Positions 502 through 55,106 of a stretch of DNA of 56,635 bases are shown here, one piece after another. The stretch's first letter is position 1, and each line of letters begins with the position of its first letter. Below the pieces are notes generated by a model. The model saw nothing but the letters and a program-made list of their open reading frames with translations. It was not told where the DNA came from and did no database searches. Source of the DNA: Candidatus Zipacnadum vermilionense. GTDB lineage: Bacteria; Armatimonadota; Zipacnadia; Zipacnadales; Zipacnadaceae. A program made the translations under genes and the position numbers. Location of the stretch: positions 1,424 to 58,058 of the forward strand of contig JALGSV010000034.1 in the NCBI GenBank assembly GCA_029821755.1. Direction: 5' to 3'.

Positions 502-551
502 GTAGCACAGGCTTCCAAGCCTGTGGCGGCAGGACAGGCTCACAAGCCTGT
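502..551 (+). repeat. REP hairpin pair, family A, left flank of the RAYT gene
   Basis: GTAG at 502-505 is followed by a near-perfect hairpin (506-525, arms CACAGGC and GCCTGTG). A second, foot-less hairpin lies at 534-551 (ACAGGC/GCCTGT). The first unit is repeated in inverse orientation at 1112-1135, so the two bracket the transposase gene. The match includes the preceding AGTCCG bases. Confidence 0.85.
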
Positions 552-568
552 GAGGTGTGCCGCAGGGC

Positions 569-1093
569 TCATCGGTTTGCGGGAGCTTTTGCGGAGCCGG
601 GGGCGGGCATGCTGCGATACCAGAAGAATGGGTATTCCAGGTAGTCGCTGCAGAGCCCGGCCCTCACGGGGTTGTTGGCCATGTACCTCAGCTTCTCGTC
701 GAATTCGCCCTGATCGCGGACGATCCGGTCATAGCTTTCCTCAACCCAGAAGACACCGCGGGTCCCTCTTCGATGGTGGATCTGATTGGCGGCATACCTC
801 TTGACACTACCGACAATCTCCCCCAGAGGCTGGAAGCTCTCGCTGCAGGTGAGGGTGAGCGGCCTGACCAGAAGGTGGACATGGTCGGGCATGACCGTTA
901 CGGCTTCGACAGTCCACTTCTTTCCGTGCCAGAATAGACAGGCCTCCAGCACTAAGCGGCGTTCCTCGGTGTCGAGGCGCCCCTCTCGCACCCGGAAGGA
1001 GACGAAGTAGGTAGAGCCGCCTTGCTGCCAATGCGGCAGGTTCCGTCGGGCGCGGGTGACCAGATGCTTGGTGACGACTGGACGCAGCGTCAT
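569..1093 (-). CDS. REP-associated tyrosine transposase (RAYT, Y1/IS200-like family)
   Basis: A 174-residue single-strand transposase of the HUH class. The metal-binding HUH motif appears as MPDHVHLLV (about residues 68-76). A tyrosine in the following helix, VEESYDRIVRD (about residue 121), is the likely nucleophile. YFVSFRV near the N-terminus and the C-terminal NNPVRAGL stretch are typical of RAYT proteins. RAYTs bind and cleave REP hairpins and are normally single-copy domesticated genes. This one is bracketed by inverted GTAG hairpins at 502-525 and 1112-1135. I chose the ATG at 1093, preceded by AAAGGAG at close spacing. An upstream GTG at 1114 lies inside the right hairpin and is less likely. 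The motifs look intact, so the protein may be active. Confidence 0.9.
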   Translation of the reverse strand: MTLRPVVTKHLVTRARRNLPHWQQGGSTYFVSFRVREGRLDTEERRLVLEACLFWHGKKWTVEAVTVMPDHVHLLVRPLTLTCSESFQPLGEIVGSVKRYAANQIHHRRGTRGVFWVEESYDRIVRDQGEFDEKLRYMANNPVRAGLCSDYLEYPFFWYRSMPAPGSAKAPANR

Positions 1094-1111
1094 TGCTCCT
1101 TTGCGGTCCGA

Positions 1112-1135
1112 CACAGGCTTGGAAGCCTGTGCTAC
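1112..1135 (-). repeat. REP hairpin, family A, right flank of the RAYT gene
   Basis: Inverse copy of the unit at 502-525: the hairpin is at 1112-1131 and CTAC (GTAG on the minus strand) at 1132-1135. The TAG inside this GTAG is the stop codon of the GH172-type gene that ends at 1132. Confidence 0.85.
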
Positions 1136-3164: not shown

Positions 3165-3538
3165 CTACCCCCCCGGCGACTTCGTCGCCAGTACCCCTCC
3201 CCTACGGGGAGGGGCGATGACGAAACAGGGCTCGGAAATGGGGAATGGGTTGGGAGTAGTGGAGGCTAGTTCGACGGCAGAGGGCGGGGGGCCTGCTTGG
3301 GGAGGGGACACCGCTGTGGAGAGCGGTGCCACTAGAAGCGCGGATAGTCATGGGGAAAGGGCGGGCTGGAAGCCCTGCGCATCGGAGTGCGCTGCGCCCC
3401 ACGCGGAGGGGACCGGAACACGCGACAGCCACCCCCACGCCGGCCACCCCGCACCGGCGAGACGTCGGTGCCACCGGGGGAGCGGCGGGGCACGTAGGCC
3501 CCGCCCTACAGGGACGCAGGCTTGGAAGCCCGCGCTAC
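3165..3538. repeat. Intergenic cluster of palindromic repeats
   Basis: The 390-bp gap between the GH172 gene and galK consists largely of repeats. It holds a CTACCCC...GGCGAC element with a following GC hairpin (about 3165-3213), a degenerate GCGGGCTGGAAGCCC unit (about 3360-3378), a family C unit (3451-3475, CACCGGC-type arms with foot GTGG on the minus strand), a family D unit (3484-3508) and a family A unit (3515-3538). The last one supplies the TAG stop of galK. I see no gene here. Confidence 0.7.
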
Positions 3539-25540: not shown

Positions 25541-25592
25541 CACCGGCGAGACGCCGGTGCCACCGGGACGCAGGCTTGGAAGCCTACGCTAC
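25541..25592. repeat. REP pair, family C plus family A
   Basis: A family C hairpin (25541-25564) is followed 5 bases later by a family A hairpin (about 25569-25588, one arm mismatched) and CTAC. Both are in the same orientation, GT-foot on the minus strand. This is in the spacer between alaS and the GNAT remnant. Confidence 0.8.
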
Positions 25593-48656: not shown

Positions 48657-51044
48657 CTACAACTGCGCTGCCGCCACCAGCGCCTGCCCCAGGGCGATCC
48701 CCCCATCGTTGGGGGGCACGTGGCGATGAAATAGTGGTCTTAGTCCTCTGGACTTCAGCAGGTCGCAGCATCGTTCCAGCAGCAGGCGATTCTGGTAAGT
48801 TCCTCCCGAGAGCGCCACGACCTGCAAGTCGTGCTCCTCCGCCGCTTGCGTCGCCATCTCCACCATCATCTGCGCGAAGCTCTCATGAAACCGCGCCGCA
48901 ATCTGGCCCGGCGACTTCCCGGCCCGCATGTCTTCTACAATTCCCCGAATGGTCGGCCGAACATCCGCGAGGGCGAGACCGTCCTCCCGCGCCAGCTCCC
49001 ATCGGTACTCTCTACTCGCGACTGGCGACTGGCGATTCGCGACTGCCTCCAGCGCCATCGCCGGTTGCCCCTCGTACGAGCTAGCCCAGGCCAGCCCCAG
49101 CAGCGCCGCGACCGCATCGAACAGCCGCCCGGCCGAGGAGACCAGGGGGGTATTGACGCCCTTGGCGATCATTTGCTCGATGACTGCCCACTTGTCCCGG
49201 GGCAGATGGCGGCAAGTTTCCAGGTCAGACAGCTCGTCGCAGAAGTCTGCTCCGAAGCTCTCTCTCAGGTAGACTCCTGCCAGCCGCCAGGGCTCACGGA
49301 TCGCCCGCTCGCCGCCGGGGAGAGGGATATTACGCAGGTGCCCCCAGCGGCTGTAGGCGCGCGCATCGCCTACGAGTATTTCGCATCCCCAGGCAGTGCC
49401 GTCCTCGCCATAGCCGGAGCCGTCGCACATGATTCCGACCGCTGGGCCGGGATCATGTGCATCCGCCAGCACTGAGACCAGGTGCGCCCAGTGGTGTTGG
49501 ACGGCCACCAGCGGCAGGCCCTCGACCTCAGCGCGCTCCCGGGCGTAACGGGTGGAGAGGTAGTCCGGGTGCAGGTCGCAGGCCAGCGCCTGCGGGTGGG
49601 TCTGCCAGACCTCCTCCAGGTGCCGCACGCAGCGCTCGAAGTAGGCCAAGTTGTCCGCGTCGGCCAAGTCGCCGATATGCTGACTGAGGAAAGCGTTCTT
49701 CCCTGTGGTCAGGCAGAAGGCGTTCTTGTAGTGCCCGCCCACCGCCAGCACGGAGGGCGCCGGCTCGGCCAGAGTCACCGGCAGCGGCGCGTAGCCGCGC
49801 GAGCGCCGCATGGGGATCGGCCCCTGCGCGCTTACTCGCAACACCGAGTCGTCACAGCCGGTAACAATGTCCCTATCGTGCTCCAGGAAGGCGTCCGCCA
49901 TCCCGCCTAGGCGCTCGTGGGCCTCCTGGTTGGAGGTGGCCAACGGCTCCTCGCTGAGGTTGCCGCTGGTCATTACCAGGGCCGGAATTCCCAGCCCGTC
50001 GAAGAGCAGCAGGTGGACCGGGGTGTAGGGTAGCATGACGCCATAGTCGGCGCTTTCCGGCGCCACGCCGAGGGCCAGGCCCTTGGGGAGACGCTGGGCT
50101 GCCAGCAGAATCGGCGCGCGCGGCCCGGTGAGTAGCTTGCGGGAGGGCGCATCCAGCTCGACCAGCTTCTCGGCGGTCTCCAGGGACTCGACCATCACCG
50201 CGAAGGGCTTCTCCGCCCGGCCTTTGCGGCGGCGCAGGAGCTGGACGGCCTCCTCGTTAGTGGCATCGCAGGCCAAATGAAAGCCGCCGAGGCCTTTGAC
50301 CGCCACGATCTGGCCCTGGCGGAGGAGGTCTTGGGCGGCGCGGAGAGCGGCGTCTCCCTCGGGCCCGGGTAGCACAGGCTTCCAAGCCTGTGCCGGTGGA
50401 GAGGATTCGCCTCCCAGGGGGACGCAGGCTTGGAAGCCTGCGCTACCCGGAACGAGCCTTAGCCGGGGCCCGCACTGGGGACACGCTACCGGCTGTGCAT
50501 GGTATCGTCGGTTGTCGAGGTTCTCGTATTCGGCCCGGCAGTCCGGGCACATCGGGAAGGCCGCCATGGACGTGAAGGGGCGGTCGTAAGGCACGGCTCG
50601 CACGAGGGTAAAGCGCGGCCCGCAGTTGGTGCAGTTGATGAAGGGATGCCGGTAGCGCCGGTCGGTTGGATCGAAAAGCTCCCGCCGGCAGTCGGCGCAC
50701 GTGGCCACATCGGGGGAGACAAAGACTGGCCCGCCTTGCTCCTCGCGGCTGGGGATGATGACGAAAGCGTCGCTCCCCTGCGCCGGAAGGGGCTTCACCG
50801 CTAGTTTCTCAATTACCGCCAGGGGCGGAGCTTCCTCCGGCAGCCGCCGGACGAAGGCCTCCACCTGAGCCGCCGGTCCCTCGACCTCCACCTGCACCCC
50901 GCCCGTGTAGTTGTACACCGACCCGGCGAGGCCCAGGTCGTCCGCCAAGCGGTGCAGGAAGGGGCGGAAGCCGACGCCCTGCACAATCCCCTCTATGATG
51001 AGTCTCTGGCGCTCGCGGGCCGGAGCAGTGGCTTCAGTGCTCAT
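48657..51044 (-). CDS. hypF: Carbamoyltransferase HypF, with in-frame REP insertion
   Basis: A 795-residue HypF that uses carbamoyl phosphate and ATP to carbamoylate HypE. Acylphosphatase domain (GIVQGVGFRPFLHRLADDLGLAGSVYN, about 19-45), zinc-finger region (CADCRRELFD, CTNCGPRF, CPDCRAEYEN, CPQCGPRL, about 116-194), YrdC-like domain (about 236-415) and Kae1-like domain with VQHHWAHLVSVLAD. Residues about 199-229 (GSAGFQACVPL...AQAWKPVLPG) have no counterpart in other HypF proteins. They are the exact translation of a REP pair at 50369-50446 of 78 bp, 26 codons. The TAG stop is within a GTAG. Confidence 0.95.
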   Translation of the reverse strand: MSTEATAPARERQRLIIEGIVQGVGFRPFLHRLADDLGLAGSVYNYTGGVQVEVEGPAAQVEAFVRRLPEEAPPLAVIEKLAVKPLPAQGSDAFVIIPSREEQGGPVFVSPDVATCADCRRELFDPTDRRYRHPFINCTNCGPRFTLVRAVPYDRPFTSMAAFPMCPDCRAEYENLDNRRYHAQPVACPQCGPRLRLVPGSAGFQACVPLGGESSPPAQAWKPVLPGPEGDAALRAAQDLLRQGQIVAVKGLGGFHLACDATNEEAVQLLRRRKGRAEKPFAVMVESLETAEKLVELDAPSRKLLTGPRAPILLAAQRLPKGLALGVAPESADYGVMLPYTPVHLLLFDGLGIPALVMTSGNLSEEPLATSNQEAHERLGGMADAFLEHDRDIVTGCDDSVLRVSAQGPIPMRRSRGYAPLPVTLAEPAPSVLAVGGHYKNAFCLTTGKNAFLSQHIGDLADADNLAYFERCVRHLEEVWQTHPQALACDLHPDYLSTRYARERAEVEGLPLVAVQHHWAHLVSVLADAHDPGPAVGIMCDGSGYGEDGTAWGCEILVGDARAYSRWGHLRNIPLPGGERAIREPWRLAGVYLRESFGADFCDELSDLETCRHLPRDKWAVIEQMIAKGVNTPLVSSAGRLFDAVAALLGLAWASSYEGQPAMALEAVANRQSPVASREYRWELAREDGLALADVRPTIRGIVEDMRAGKSPGQIAARFHESFAQMMVEMATQAAEEHDLQVVALSGGTYQNRLLLERCCDLLKSRGLRPLFHRHVPPNDGGIALGQALVAAAQL
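49014..49043. repeat. Short CGCGACTGG-type repeat inside hypF
   Basis: CTCGCGACTGGCGACTGGCG, then ATTCGCGACT. The repeated GCGACTG words are read in hypF as NRQSPVASRE, a stretch that does not look like HypF. It may be a second small insertion. Confidence 0.5.
50369..50446. repeat. Family A REP pair inside hypF
   Basis: GTAG plus a hairpin with CACAGGC/GCCTGTG arms (50369-50392) faces a hairpin with CGCAGGC/GCCTGCG arms plus CTAC (50423-50446). The 78-bp unit keeps the hypF frame and lies between the zinc-finger and YrdC-like domains. Confidence 0.92.
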
Positions 51045-51660: not shown

Positions 51661-52371
51661 TTACTTCTTGTTGCGGCGCCTCCGAGCGAAGCCCAGGCCC
51701 AGCAGGGCCAGCGAACTCAGGGCCAGCGTAGTCGGCTCGGGGATGTCGCTGTAGTCGTAGTCGTAAGTGACCTGCAACGCGGCTCCCGCCTGGGTAGTGA
51801 ACGCCGAGGAAAAGTAGCCCACGGTGTCTGATGCGGTTGAAGCGCCGGTGGCGCCAGTCGTCATGGTCACGCTACCCGTCCCACTAAACATCGTTATGTA
51901 CGGCGATGTAGTGTCCCACCAGATTGACTGCTGGGTAGCTGTCTGGTTGTTGTAGGTCTTTCCAGAGTCCCCCGCGTAGTCCGTAGTCCCGTCATAGGTC
52001 GGCAGGGAGTCCCATTGGGTCACCGTCGGCACACAAGTGAGCAGGAGAGTGGAGCCGGGGTCCCAGAGGCTCATACTTGCCGCCAGGTTCCCGGTAACCG
52101 TGTTGTTGGGCGCGCCTGTGGATGTGTTCTCGTACTGAATTGTGCCTAGCACGGTTCCATCGTAGGTCAGGGTAATCTTTTGGAGCACTGCTCCGGCAGC
52201 GAAGGACGCCGCATTCCACTGTGGAACAGCGATGTTGGTGGGGCCCCAAGCAGTACTGGTCGGCCCGAGACTGACCGGGACCGAGAGATAGCTGATGGAG
52301 TCCGCCCAGGCCCCTGAGGAGACCAGAAGCATGAGAATGACCACAATTGAGATACTGATGCGCGTTTTCAC
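51661..52371 (-). CDS. PEP-CTERM surface protein, choice-of-anchor E type (paralogue 1)
   Basis: A 236-residue exported protein with a signal peptide (MKTRISISIVVILMLLVSSGAWA), a beta-rich middle (VPQWNAASFAAGAVLQKITLTYDG, TIQYEN) and a C-terminal sorting signal. The signal is IPEPTTLALSSLALLGLGF followed by ARRRRNKK, the PEP motif, membrane helix and basic tail. Exosortase should cut at the PEP site. No exosortase is in the window. It is followed by a strong terminator and preceded by TTGACA (52458-52463) with a weak -10. The other two paralogues lie upstream on the same strand. Confidence 0.9.
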   Translation of the reverse strand: MKTRISISIVVILMLLVSSGAWADSISYLSVPVSLGPTSTAWGPTNIAVPQWNAASFAAGAVLQKITLTYDGTVLGTIQYENTSTGAPNNTVTGNLAASMSLWDPGSTLLLTCVPTVTQWDSLPTYDGTTDYAGDSGKTYNNQTATQQSIWWDTTSPYITMFSGTGSVTMTTGATGASTASDTVGYFSSAFTTQAGAALQVTYDYDYSDIPEPTTLALSSLALLGLGFARRRRNKK

Positions 52372-52434
52372 AGGAATACCCTCCCGGGTCCCCCCTAAGG
52401 ATCGAGTGTGTCCAAGGCTGCTCCGTGCGATGGT

Positions 52435-52463
52435 AGCTTACCCAAACTGACCAGGGTTGTCAA
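52435..52463 (-). promoter_or_regulatory. Possible promoter of PEP-CTERM paralogue 1
   Basis: Minus strand -35 TTGACA (52458-52463), 17 bases, then TAAGCT (52435-52440), which matches the -10 consensus poorly. Confidence 0.35.
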
Positions 52464-52506
52464 GACCCTTCATACACTTTTTTTCTGCGGGGTGTGTGAC
52501 CCCCGT

Positions 52507-53187
52507 CTATTCCGCACGCTTTCCGCGTCTCCGGCGCCAATACCCTACCCCCGCCAGTCCCAGGGACACCAGGATCAGGGTGCCGGGCTCCGGGATCGCG
52601 TCGTAATCGTAGGTCACCGTCATGTACGCCCCAGCCAGGGTGGTGAAGCGGTACGAGACATTACCGCCGCCCGTTACATAGGAGGAAGCCGACGCGTAGG
52701 TCGGCAAGCTGATACTGCCCGGGCCGGTGAACATGGCCAGGTACAGGGGGGTTGCGCTGGTCCAGTTCCCCGTCGCGGAACCGGTCACACCCGTATAGGT
52801 TCGCCCCGAGGGGCCAGCGAAGTCGGTGACCCCGTCATAGGCGGGCAAGGCATCGCTCCGGATCGCCGATGGCGTCGTGCTCAGCAGCAGCACGTTGCTG
52901 GTGTCGTACAGAGATTCATTGGCCTGCAGGTGGCCGGTTATCGTCCCCGCAGAGCCCTTGTTCTCATACTTGATCGTGCCCGCGACACTTCCATAGAAAT
53001 TGAGGGTGACGGAGTTCAGCGTCGCGCCGCCGCTCGCATCGAACTTGGACACCGTGAGGTTCAACGGCCCCCAATCGCAGAGCGTGTTGGGGATGAGATT
53101 AGAGGTGTACTGCACCGTATCAGCCGCGACCCCGGTCGCGACCAGGCAAACGACAATTGTCAGCGTCAGTAGTAAAGTCTTCCTCAT
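52507..53187 (-). CDS. PEP-CTERM surface protein, choice-of-anchor E type (paralogue 2)
   Basis: A 226-residue exported protein built like paralogue 1: signal peptide MRKTLLLTLTIVVCLVATGVAA, the block WGPLNLTVSKFDASGGATLNSVTLNFYG, YDGVTDFAGPSGRTYTGVTG, and the sorting signal IPEPGTLILVSLGLAGVGY with WRRRRGKRAE. I chose the ATG at 53187 because the signal peptide begins there. The longer frame to 53286 adds a non-hydrophobic leader. It diverges from the other two more than they do from each other. Confidence 0.88.
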   Translation of the reverse strand: MRKTLLLTLTIVVCLVATGVAADTVQYTSNLIPNTLCDWGPLNLTVSKFDASGGATLNSVTLNFYGSVAGTIKYENKGSAGTITGHLQANESLYDTSNVLLLSTTPSAIRSDALPAYDGVTDFAGPSGRTYTGVTGSATGNWTSATPLYLAMFTGPGSISLPTYASASSYVTGGGNVSYRFTTLAGAYMTVTYDYDAIPEPGTLILVSLGLAGVGYWRRRRGKRAE

Positions 53188-53346
53188 CACCGCGTCCTCT
53201 GCTCCCCCCGGGGAGGCTCCAGCCCCTTGCTGGTGCACTTGTCCCTTGCTACTGCTGTGTCTGTGAGTCATTGGGGCGCCCCGCACTCCAGGGCGCCAAC
53301 TGCAAGCGGCGAGGTTCTCGCCCAGCCGCGTTATGAATGCAGCAAT

Positions 53347-54051
53347 CTACCTGCTCGAGCGGCGCCGGCGGCGACCCCGCAGCAGTCCGACTCCCATCAG
53401 CCCCAGCGCGCCTAGCGCTAAGGTGCAGGGCTCGGGAATGTCGGTCTGGTCGTAATCGTACCGCACGGTGAGGGACCCGCCGGCGTTGGTAACGAACTCG
53501 CCAGCTACATTCCCTCCGCCGGTGGCAATGGACTTCCCCTCGGCGTCGGTAGTCATGGTGACGTTGCTGCTCCCGCTGAACATGGTCAGGTACGGGGAGC
53601 CGGTGGTCCACCAGATCTCCTGGGTCGACCCGGTGACATTAGTGTACGTCCGCCCCGAGAGCCCGGCGAAGTCCTCAATGAGATCGTAATCCGGCAGCGC
53701 ATCAGTCTTGGAGACCAAAGGGGTAGCCGTGAGCAGGAGCACACTGTCAGGATCCCACAGGTGCATCTCGGCCTTCAGCGTACCCGTTACGGTGGTAGCC
53801 GATCCCTCGTTCTCGTACTGGATTGTACCTACAACGGTGCCGTCGTAAGTAAGGGTGACTTTGGCCAGGGTGTAGCCTACGAAGGTAGAGGGGTCCCACT
53901 GGGGGACGGAGATGTTGGTCGGCCCCCAATCCGTTAGACTGGGGCCGATGCTCAAGGGGGTGGAGGTGTAAGTGACGAAATCGGCCCACGCCCCAGAGGA
54001 GGCGAGAACCGTGACGAGGAGTAGGATTATGGGGAAGATACGCATTCTCAT
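53347..54051 (-). CDS. PEP-CTERM surface protein, choice-of-anchor E type (paralogue 3)
   Basis: A 234-residue exported protein: signal peptide MRMRIFPIILLLVTVLASSGAWA, WGPTNISVPQWDPSTF, KVTLTYDGTVVGTIQYENEG, MHLWDPDSVLLLTATP and the sorting signal IPEPCTLALGALGLMGVGLL with RGRRRRRSSR. It is closest to paralogue 1, so the trio arose by tandem duplication. A consensus promoter lies about 60 bases upstream. The proteins probably end on the cell surface or in exopolysaccharide after exosortase cleavage. Confidence 0.9.
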   Translation of the reverse strand: MRMRIFPIILLLVTVLASSGAWADFVTYTSTPLSIGPSLTDWGPTNISVPQWDPSTFVGYTLAKVTLTYDGTVVGTIQYENEGSATTVTGTLKAEMHLWDPDSVLLLTATPLVSKTDALPDYDLIEDFAGLSGRTYTNVTGSTQEIWWTTGSPYLTMFSGSSNVTMTTDAEGKSIATGGGNVAGEFVTNAGGSLTVRYDYDQTDIPEPCTLALGALGLMGVGLLRGRRRRRSSR

Positions 54052-54194: not shown

Positions 54195-55106
54195 TCAGGT
54201 GGGCAGCTCTCGCGCTAGCTGGAAGGCGATGATCGCAGCCGCCACGGCGGCGTTGAGGGATTCGGCGCCGCCCGGCATGGGGATGCTGACGGCCAGGTCG
54301 GCGGCGGTGACGACCTCCTCGGGCAGGCCGTGGGCCTCCGAGCCGACCAGCAGCAGGCTGCGGGGCGGGTAGTCGGCCTGGTCGCAGGGCGCCCCGCTCT
54401 CCATCGCCGCGACCACTAGCGCCGCCTGCCATCGGCCCAGGTGGTCGCGCAGGGCGTAGAGATTGGGCAGGCGCAGCAGGGGCAGGTGCAGCAGCGACCC
54501 GGCGGAGGCCCGCACGACCTTGGGATCGTAGAAGTCCACGCAATTGCCGACTGCCACCACCGCCGCGGCGGAGAAGGCGTGGGCGGTGCGGATCATGGTG
54601 CCCATGTTGCCGGGATCGCGTAGCTCCCAGAGACCGAGTAGCCAGAGGGGAGCCTCACCCCCTGCCCCCTCTCCTGGCAGGAGAGGGGGTGGAGAGGGGG
54701 TAGCACAGGCTTCCAAGCCTGTGTTTTCTTCTTGGCTCGCGCCGACGCAGGCTTGGAAGCCTGCGCTACCCGGAGTGGGAATCCTCGCGACCGCCGCGAG
54801 GCCGGGCGGGGTCTCGGTGTGGCTCATAGCCGCCAGGGCGCGGGGAGTGATCTCCACCACCTCGACCCCGGCGTCGAGCAGGGCGCGCAAGAGGCGATCT
54901 TCCTCCGGGCCGACGAACTTCTCGGGCGAGTAAGCGGCCCACTCGATCTCCGCCCCGGCGCGGAGGGCCTCCCCAATCAGCCGCCGCCCCTCCAAGGCAA
55001 AGAGGCCGGTCGCGCGGCGATGCTTGGCCTCGGAGAGAGAGCGAAAGAGTTTGACACGGGAGTTTTGAGGGGAGTCGATCATGGTTCTCGGTACGAAGGT
55101 CGTCAT
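54195..55106 (-). CDS. SpoU/TrmH-family RNA 2'-O-methyltransferase with in-frame repeat insertion
   Basis: A 303-residue SPOUT methyltransferase: substrate-binding N-terminal domain (KHRRATGLFALEGRRLIGEAL, about 28-47) and the knotted catalytic domain with motif 1 ELRDPGNMGTMIRTA, motif 2 LLLVGSEAHGLPEEV and motif 3 VSIPMPGGAESLNAAVAAAI. It methylates a ribose in 23S rRNA or tRNA. Residues about 111-153 (GSAGFQACVGASQ...GLEACATPSPPPLLPGEGAGG) are the translation of a repeat block at 54648-54776, placed in the linker between the domains. The start may be the ATG at 55106 or at 55082. Confidence 0.92.
   Translation of the reverse strand: MTTFVPRTMIDSPQNSRVKLFRSLSEAKHRRATGLFALEGRRLIGEALRAGAEIEWAAYSPEKFVGPEEDRLLRALLDAGVEVVEITPRALAAMSHTETPPGLAAVARIPTPGSAGFQACVGASQEENTGLEACATPSPPPLLPGEGAGGEAPLWLLGLWELRDPGNMGTMIRTAHAFSAAAVVAVGNCVDFYDPKVVRASAGSLLHLPLLRLPNLYALRDHLGRWQAALVVAAMESGAPCDQADYPPRSLLLVGSEAHGLPEEVVTAADLAVSIPMPGGAESLNAAVAAAIIAFQLARELPT
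54654..54769. repeat. Family F plus family A REP pair inside the TrmH-like gene
   Basis: A CTCACCCCCTGCCCCC palindrome of family F (54654-54690) is followed by GTAG with a CACAGGC hairpin (54700-54723) and an inverse CGCAGGC hairpin with CTAC (54746-54769). All of it is in frame with the methyltransferase gene. Confidence 0.92.

Follow-up and report, generated by a model that had tools for sequence, protein, structure and literature searches.

The hypF gene of Candidatus Zipacnadum vermilionense carries an inverted pair of GTAG-type REPs (a REPIN), and the reading frame runs through it. Very probably, such REPINs are moved by a RAYT family and insert widely, and those insertions that keep the frame in tolerant linkers survive as near-neutral spacers. 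hypF is not the sole case, since several other genes of this genome carry in-frame REPs. The phenomenon of the in-frame intragenic REP has already been described, and what is new is its occurrence in this lineage.

The REP pair within hypF

The window, i.e., the whole stretch of 56,635 nucleotides analysed, holds the pair and its host gene as follows:

48657..51044, minus strand: hypF, 795 aa, the host gene (TIGR00143, 781 bits; Pfam domains on both sides of the REP pair)
50365..50450, no strand assigned: inverted pair of GTAG-type REPs (REPIN) in hypF (26-nt arms, pattern matches)

The two arms (50365-50390 and 50425-50450) are 26 nt each, 96% complementary and separated by a 34-nt spacer. 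Both are copies of GTAGCRCAGGCTTCCAAGCCTG that differ from the genome REP consensus by 0 and 1 mismatches, and the 22-nt REP pattern matches at 50369-50390 and 50425-50446. Two inverted REPs with a short spacer make this pair a REPIN. The initial annotation described it as a 78-bp inverted pair; the pair is real, but 78 nt is the length of the GTAG...CTAC core (50369-50446) and the full inverted repeat measures 86 nt. The hypF frame is stop-free across the pair and reads ..LVP-GSAGFQACVPLGGESSPPAQAWKPVLPG-PEGDAALR.., where the core encodes about residues 200-226 of HypF. The frame and the domain search together bear out the earlier placement of the pair, in frame between the zinc-finger and YrdC domains. 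With an open frame, a conserved gene and homologues that do not have the repeat, hypF shows the features of a translated intragenic REP.

As the annotation had also proposed, the gene is otherwise intact. The protein scores 781 bits against TIGR00143 (cut-off 466), and all HypF domains (acylphosphatase, zinc-finger, YrdC and Kae1-like) are present in Pfam searches. An intact gene around an in-frame pair agrees with the suggestion that the insertion is apparently tolerated. The proposed full hydrogenase operon holds as far as hypA, hypF, hypC, hypD, hypE, the NiFe hydrogenase subunits and the HycI protease are concerned; however, a sulfatase gene separates hypF from hypC, and no hypB turned up among the ORFs tested. 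At 51661-54051, adjacent genes encode three related secreted proteins whose ends are PEP-CTERM-like (IPEPTTLAL...RRRR). The sequence CGACTGGCGACTGGCGATT, which reads NRQSPVASRE, forms a short direct repeat near the HypF C-terminus (49020-49060). This SPVAS-like repeat was considered as a second mobile insert in HypF and rejected, as its core has 2 copies in the genome and both congeners have related residues there.

None of about 30 aligned HypF proteins, drawn from the genus (two congeners) out to the phylum at large, contains the REP peptide, and the loop is thus foreign to these relatives, as had been claimed. From the last CGP motif of the zinc finger to the start of YrdC there are 52 residues here, 28 in most relatives, and 31 and 36 in the two congeners. 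The net excess is 24 codons against the usual relative and 21 and 16 against the congeners, so that an insertion of exactly 26 codons does not follow from these lengths. The congener linkers vary in length and sequence, and the nearest named genome for HypF is a candidate division WS1 bacterium (L143, 72%). Because there is no very close empty site, the exact ends of the insert and a clean gain of 78 or 86 nt are not readable. The distant HypF L024 reaches the same 52 residues with an unrelated Pro/Gly-rich stretch, and the linker of an Anaerolineales HypF contains a tandem QYSV repeat. This linker thus tolerates expansion.

Solved HypF structures align with the protein, and their matches gap or break at the insert. 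In an AlphaFold2 model built from 14 sequences, the mean pLDDT is 83 and the values at residues 202-229, flanked by a strand (196-199) and a helix (229-242), are below 50 and the lowest in the protein. This is what a disordered linker would give, though for a segment that lacks homologues it is no proof alone. The insert is probably a disordered loop that would act as a spacer away from the catalytic residues.

The REP family and its RAYT gene

The REP unit consists of an unpaired GTAG tag and a CAGGCTT-NN-AAGCCTG stem, the short palindrome typical of GTAG-type REPs. Allowing up to 3 mismatches, the 22-nt pattern has 10 matches in the window and 0 in 100 shuffles. At up to 2 mismatches, this genome has 72 copies and two congeners have 20 and 6, with few or none elsewhere, whereas the reversed pattern has 0 matches in this genome and both congeners. 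The family is therefore dispersed and of high copy number (72 against 0), as is typical of the GTAG type. Further REP pairs of 58-78 nt are found elsewhere in the genome. Two REPs in the window flank a RAYT-like gene and two others are single:

502..523, plus strand: REP on one side of the RAYT gene (pattern match, 1 mismatch)
569..1114, minus strand: RAYT-like transposase, 181 aa (motifs PDHVHLLV and YMANNPVRAGL; NF047646, Y1_Tnp)
1114..1135, minus strand: inverted REP at the opposite side of the RAYT gene (pattern match, 1 mismatch)
3517..3538, minus strand: single REP (pattern match, 1 mismatch)
25571..25592, minus strand: single REP (pattern match, 1 mismatch)

A RAYT gene flanked by repeats is a further mark of GTAG-type REPs, although the score of the ORF against NF047646 (74.0 bits, E 1e-20) is just under the curated cut-off of 80. 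Its match to Y1_Tnp has an E of 5e-4.

Across the stretches around REP matches, with ORFs defined by a simple caller, 64 REP loci were counted. Of these, 39 fall between ORFs, 10 are close to a 5' end and 15 are internal to coding-like ORFs, while the same simple caller marks 86% of the window as coding. REPs are thus strongly depleted in genes, a pattern that the removal of most genic insertions would produce. Of the six frames of a single REP, one contains a stop. Reverse-oriented arms are read in the frame giving AGLEACAT in 8 of 12 cases (p 0.019, uncorrected, from 12 hand-counted arms of which some belong to one gene), which is only a hint of a preferred frame.

REPs in frame in other genes

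A second inverted pair lies 4 kb from the first, between the two domains of a SpoU-family methyltransferase:

54195..55106, minus strand: SpoU/TrmH-family RNA methyltransferase, 303 aa (Pfam substrate-binding domain 15-105, SpoU_methylase 157-294)
54700..54769, no strand assigned: second inverted REP pair, in frame in the methyltransferase gene (pattern matches; absent in relatives)

This pair is translated as GSAGFQAC...TGLEACAT, and the congener gene does not have it. A different repeat-like palindrome, CCCCCTCTCCTGGCAGGAGAGGGGG, adjoins the pair (54600-54700) and is translated in the same gene as PSPPPLLPGEGAGGEAP; in a congener, this linker contains a comparable stretch, YPLAPSPRGGGSA.

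Five further genes of this genome, those for HisRS, Mfd, GlmM, prephenate dehydrogenase and HolB, have single REPs that are translated; that of HisRS lies between the catalytic core and the anticodon domain. In the congener G001, in-frame REPs are found in HisRS, a glycyl-radical enzyme and a GH95 hydrolase. The HisRS REPs of the two sister species occupy the same linker in opposite orientation and, because of that orientation, are probably separate events. Absence in relatives was established by alignment for HypF, SpoU, HisRS and Mfd, while for the other hosts the case rests on the conserved domains that surround the REP. A frame that stays open across a REP did not count as evidence on its own. 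A FAD-dependent protein, a beta-helix protein, PSP1 and L083 are weaker in-frame cases. REPs near ORF 5' ends (L079, L085, L049, L056) were left out, as they are probably upstream of the true start. Two congener inserts have additional features: that of HisRS (L215) looks composite, with a second hairpin type, GGTGGCGCAGGCGTCTCGCC, beside the REP and similar peptides of the TGETPVPP type next to REPs of other genes, and the GH95 gene (L178:323-2968) has tandem REP-derived peptides, QARKPALRGTQARKPALRGTQAGEPALETQARKPA, between its N-terminal and catalytic domains.

Origin of the insert and comparison with known systems

We suggest that the hypF insert is a REPIN. Elements of this kind are mobile but non-autonomous, and the RAYT family of this genome is the most likely agent of its movement. 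REPINs would land widely, and insertions that break genes would be lost. Survival would be left to insertions that preserve the reading frame, do not use the stop-bearing one and lie within flexible linkers, where they would be translated as nearly neutral spacers. In HypF, the spacer would be a loop between the zinc-finger and YrdC domains. It is inferred that this RAYT mobilises the element, that the cell translates the loop and that the insert is nearly neutral.

Alternatively, the insert may have been kept for a function. Its hairpin might delay ribosomes on the hyp mRNA or shield the transcript, or its peptide loop might adjust how the HypF domains move. We regard this as improbable. The insert RNA has a folding energy of -75.6 kcal/mol (z -7.2 relative to shuffles), but any inverted REP pair would give such a hairpin, so that it is no argument for function alone. 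The use of the same HisRS linker by two sister species would fit retention for function; however, the congeners have no REP in hypF, and the host genes are unrelated, which speaks against a common function. It is also unlikely that in this lineage REPs are a recurrent source of new inter-domain linker sequence in housekeeping proteins, with separate insertions into one HisRS linker of sister species and a preferred frame. If true, the encoded peptide itself would be under selection, in addition to selection against harmful insertions.

A repeat-induced chimera is conceivable in a metagenome-assembled genome of 115 contigs with dozens of REP copies. It is nevertheless very unlikely, as the hypF insert is shorter than 90 nt, in frame and contig-internal with correct flanks, and comparable in-frame REPs occur in several genes and in the independent assembly of a congener. 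There is next to no likelihood that ordinary linker divergence has produced a chance resemblance to a REP. The length of the linker is variable, and the initial annotation had named a homologous segment of the same length in relatives as grounds for refuting an insertion. L024 does reach this length, but with unrelated sequence, and linkers are mostly of 28 residues. In addition, the close match of both arms to the consensus, with no match in shuffles, contradicts this explanation at the DNA level. We favor the survival of RAYT-moved REPINs as near-neutral spacers.

With these findings, the known range of translated intragenic REPs grows by an uncultured lineage and by the essential proteins HisRS, GlmM and HolB, with relatives that lack the insert. 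The lengthening of protein linkers by mobile repeats can be tested on this natural set, and annotators are warned that repeat-derived residues may belong to real proteins.

The initial annotation knew rickettsial palindromic elements as the only close analogue, but intragenic GTAG REPs have been known since 2013. In Di Nocera et al. 2013 (PMC3733652), GTAG-type REPs are reported inside ORFs of Opitutus terrae, Thauera and others. More than half of these inserts are dimers or groups encoding 20-30 residues, and it is suggested that they perhaps sit in flexible linkers. As here, they are single or inverted dimers, in frame in genes of known function, and the RAYT genes are flanked by the repeats. 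Our case differs in its lineage, near candidate division WS1, for which we found no useful report on REPs, in its REP sequence, and in the host gene, although hypF may be in the supplementary list of that paper. REP doublets have been described as mobile units (PMC3116915). The REPINs of Pseudomonas fluorescens SBW25 are likewise inverted doublets with an associated RAYT, with spacings of 71 and 110 bp compared with the 78-bp core here; they were analysed in extragenic space, whereas the hypF REPIN is in an open frame. The Rickettsia palindromic elements resemble ours by description, being palindromic, in frame and tolerated in many unrelated proteins, but their hosts are different. RPE-4 and RPE-6, which are intragenic in Rickettsia, fall into the CGTC superfamily, and this superfamily has no transposase association (PMC3733652).
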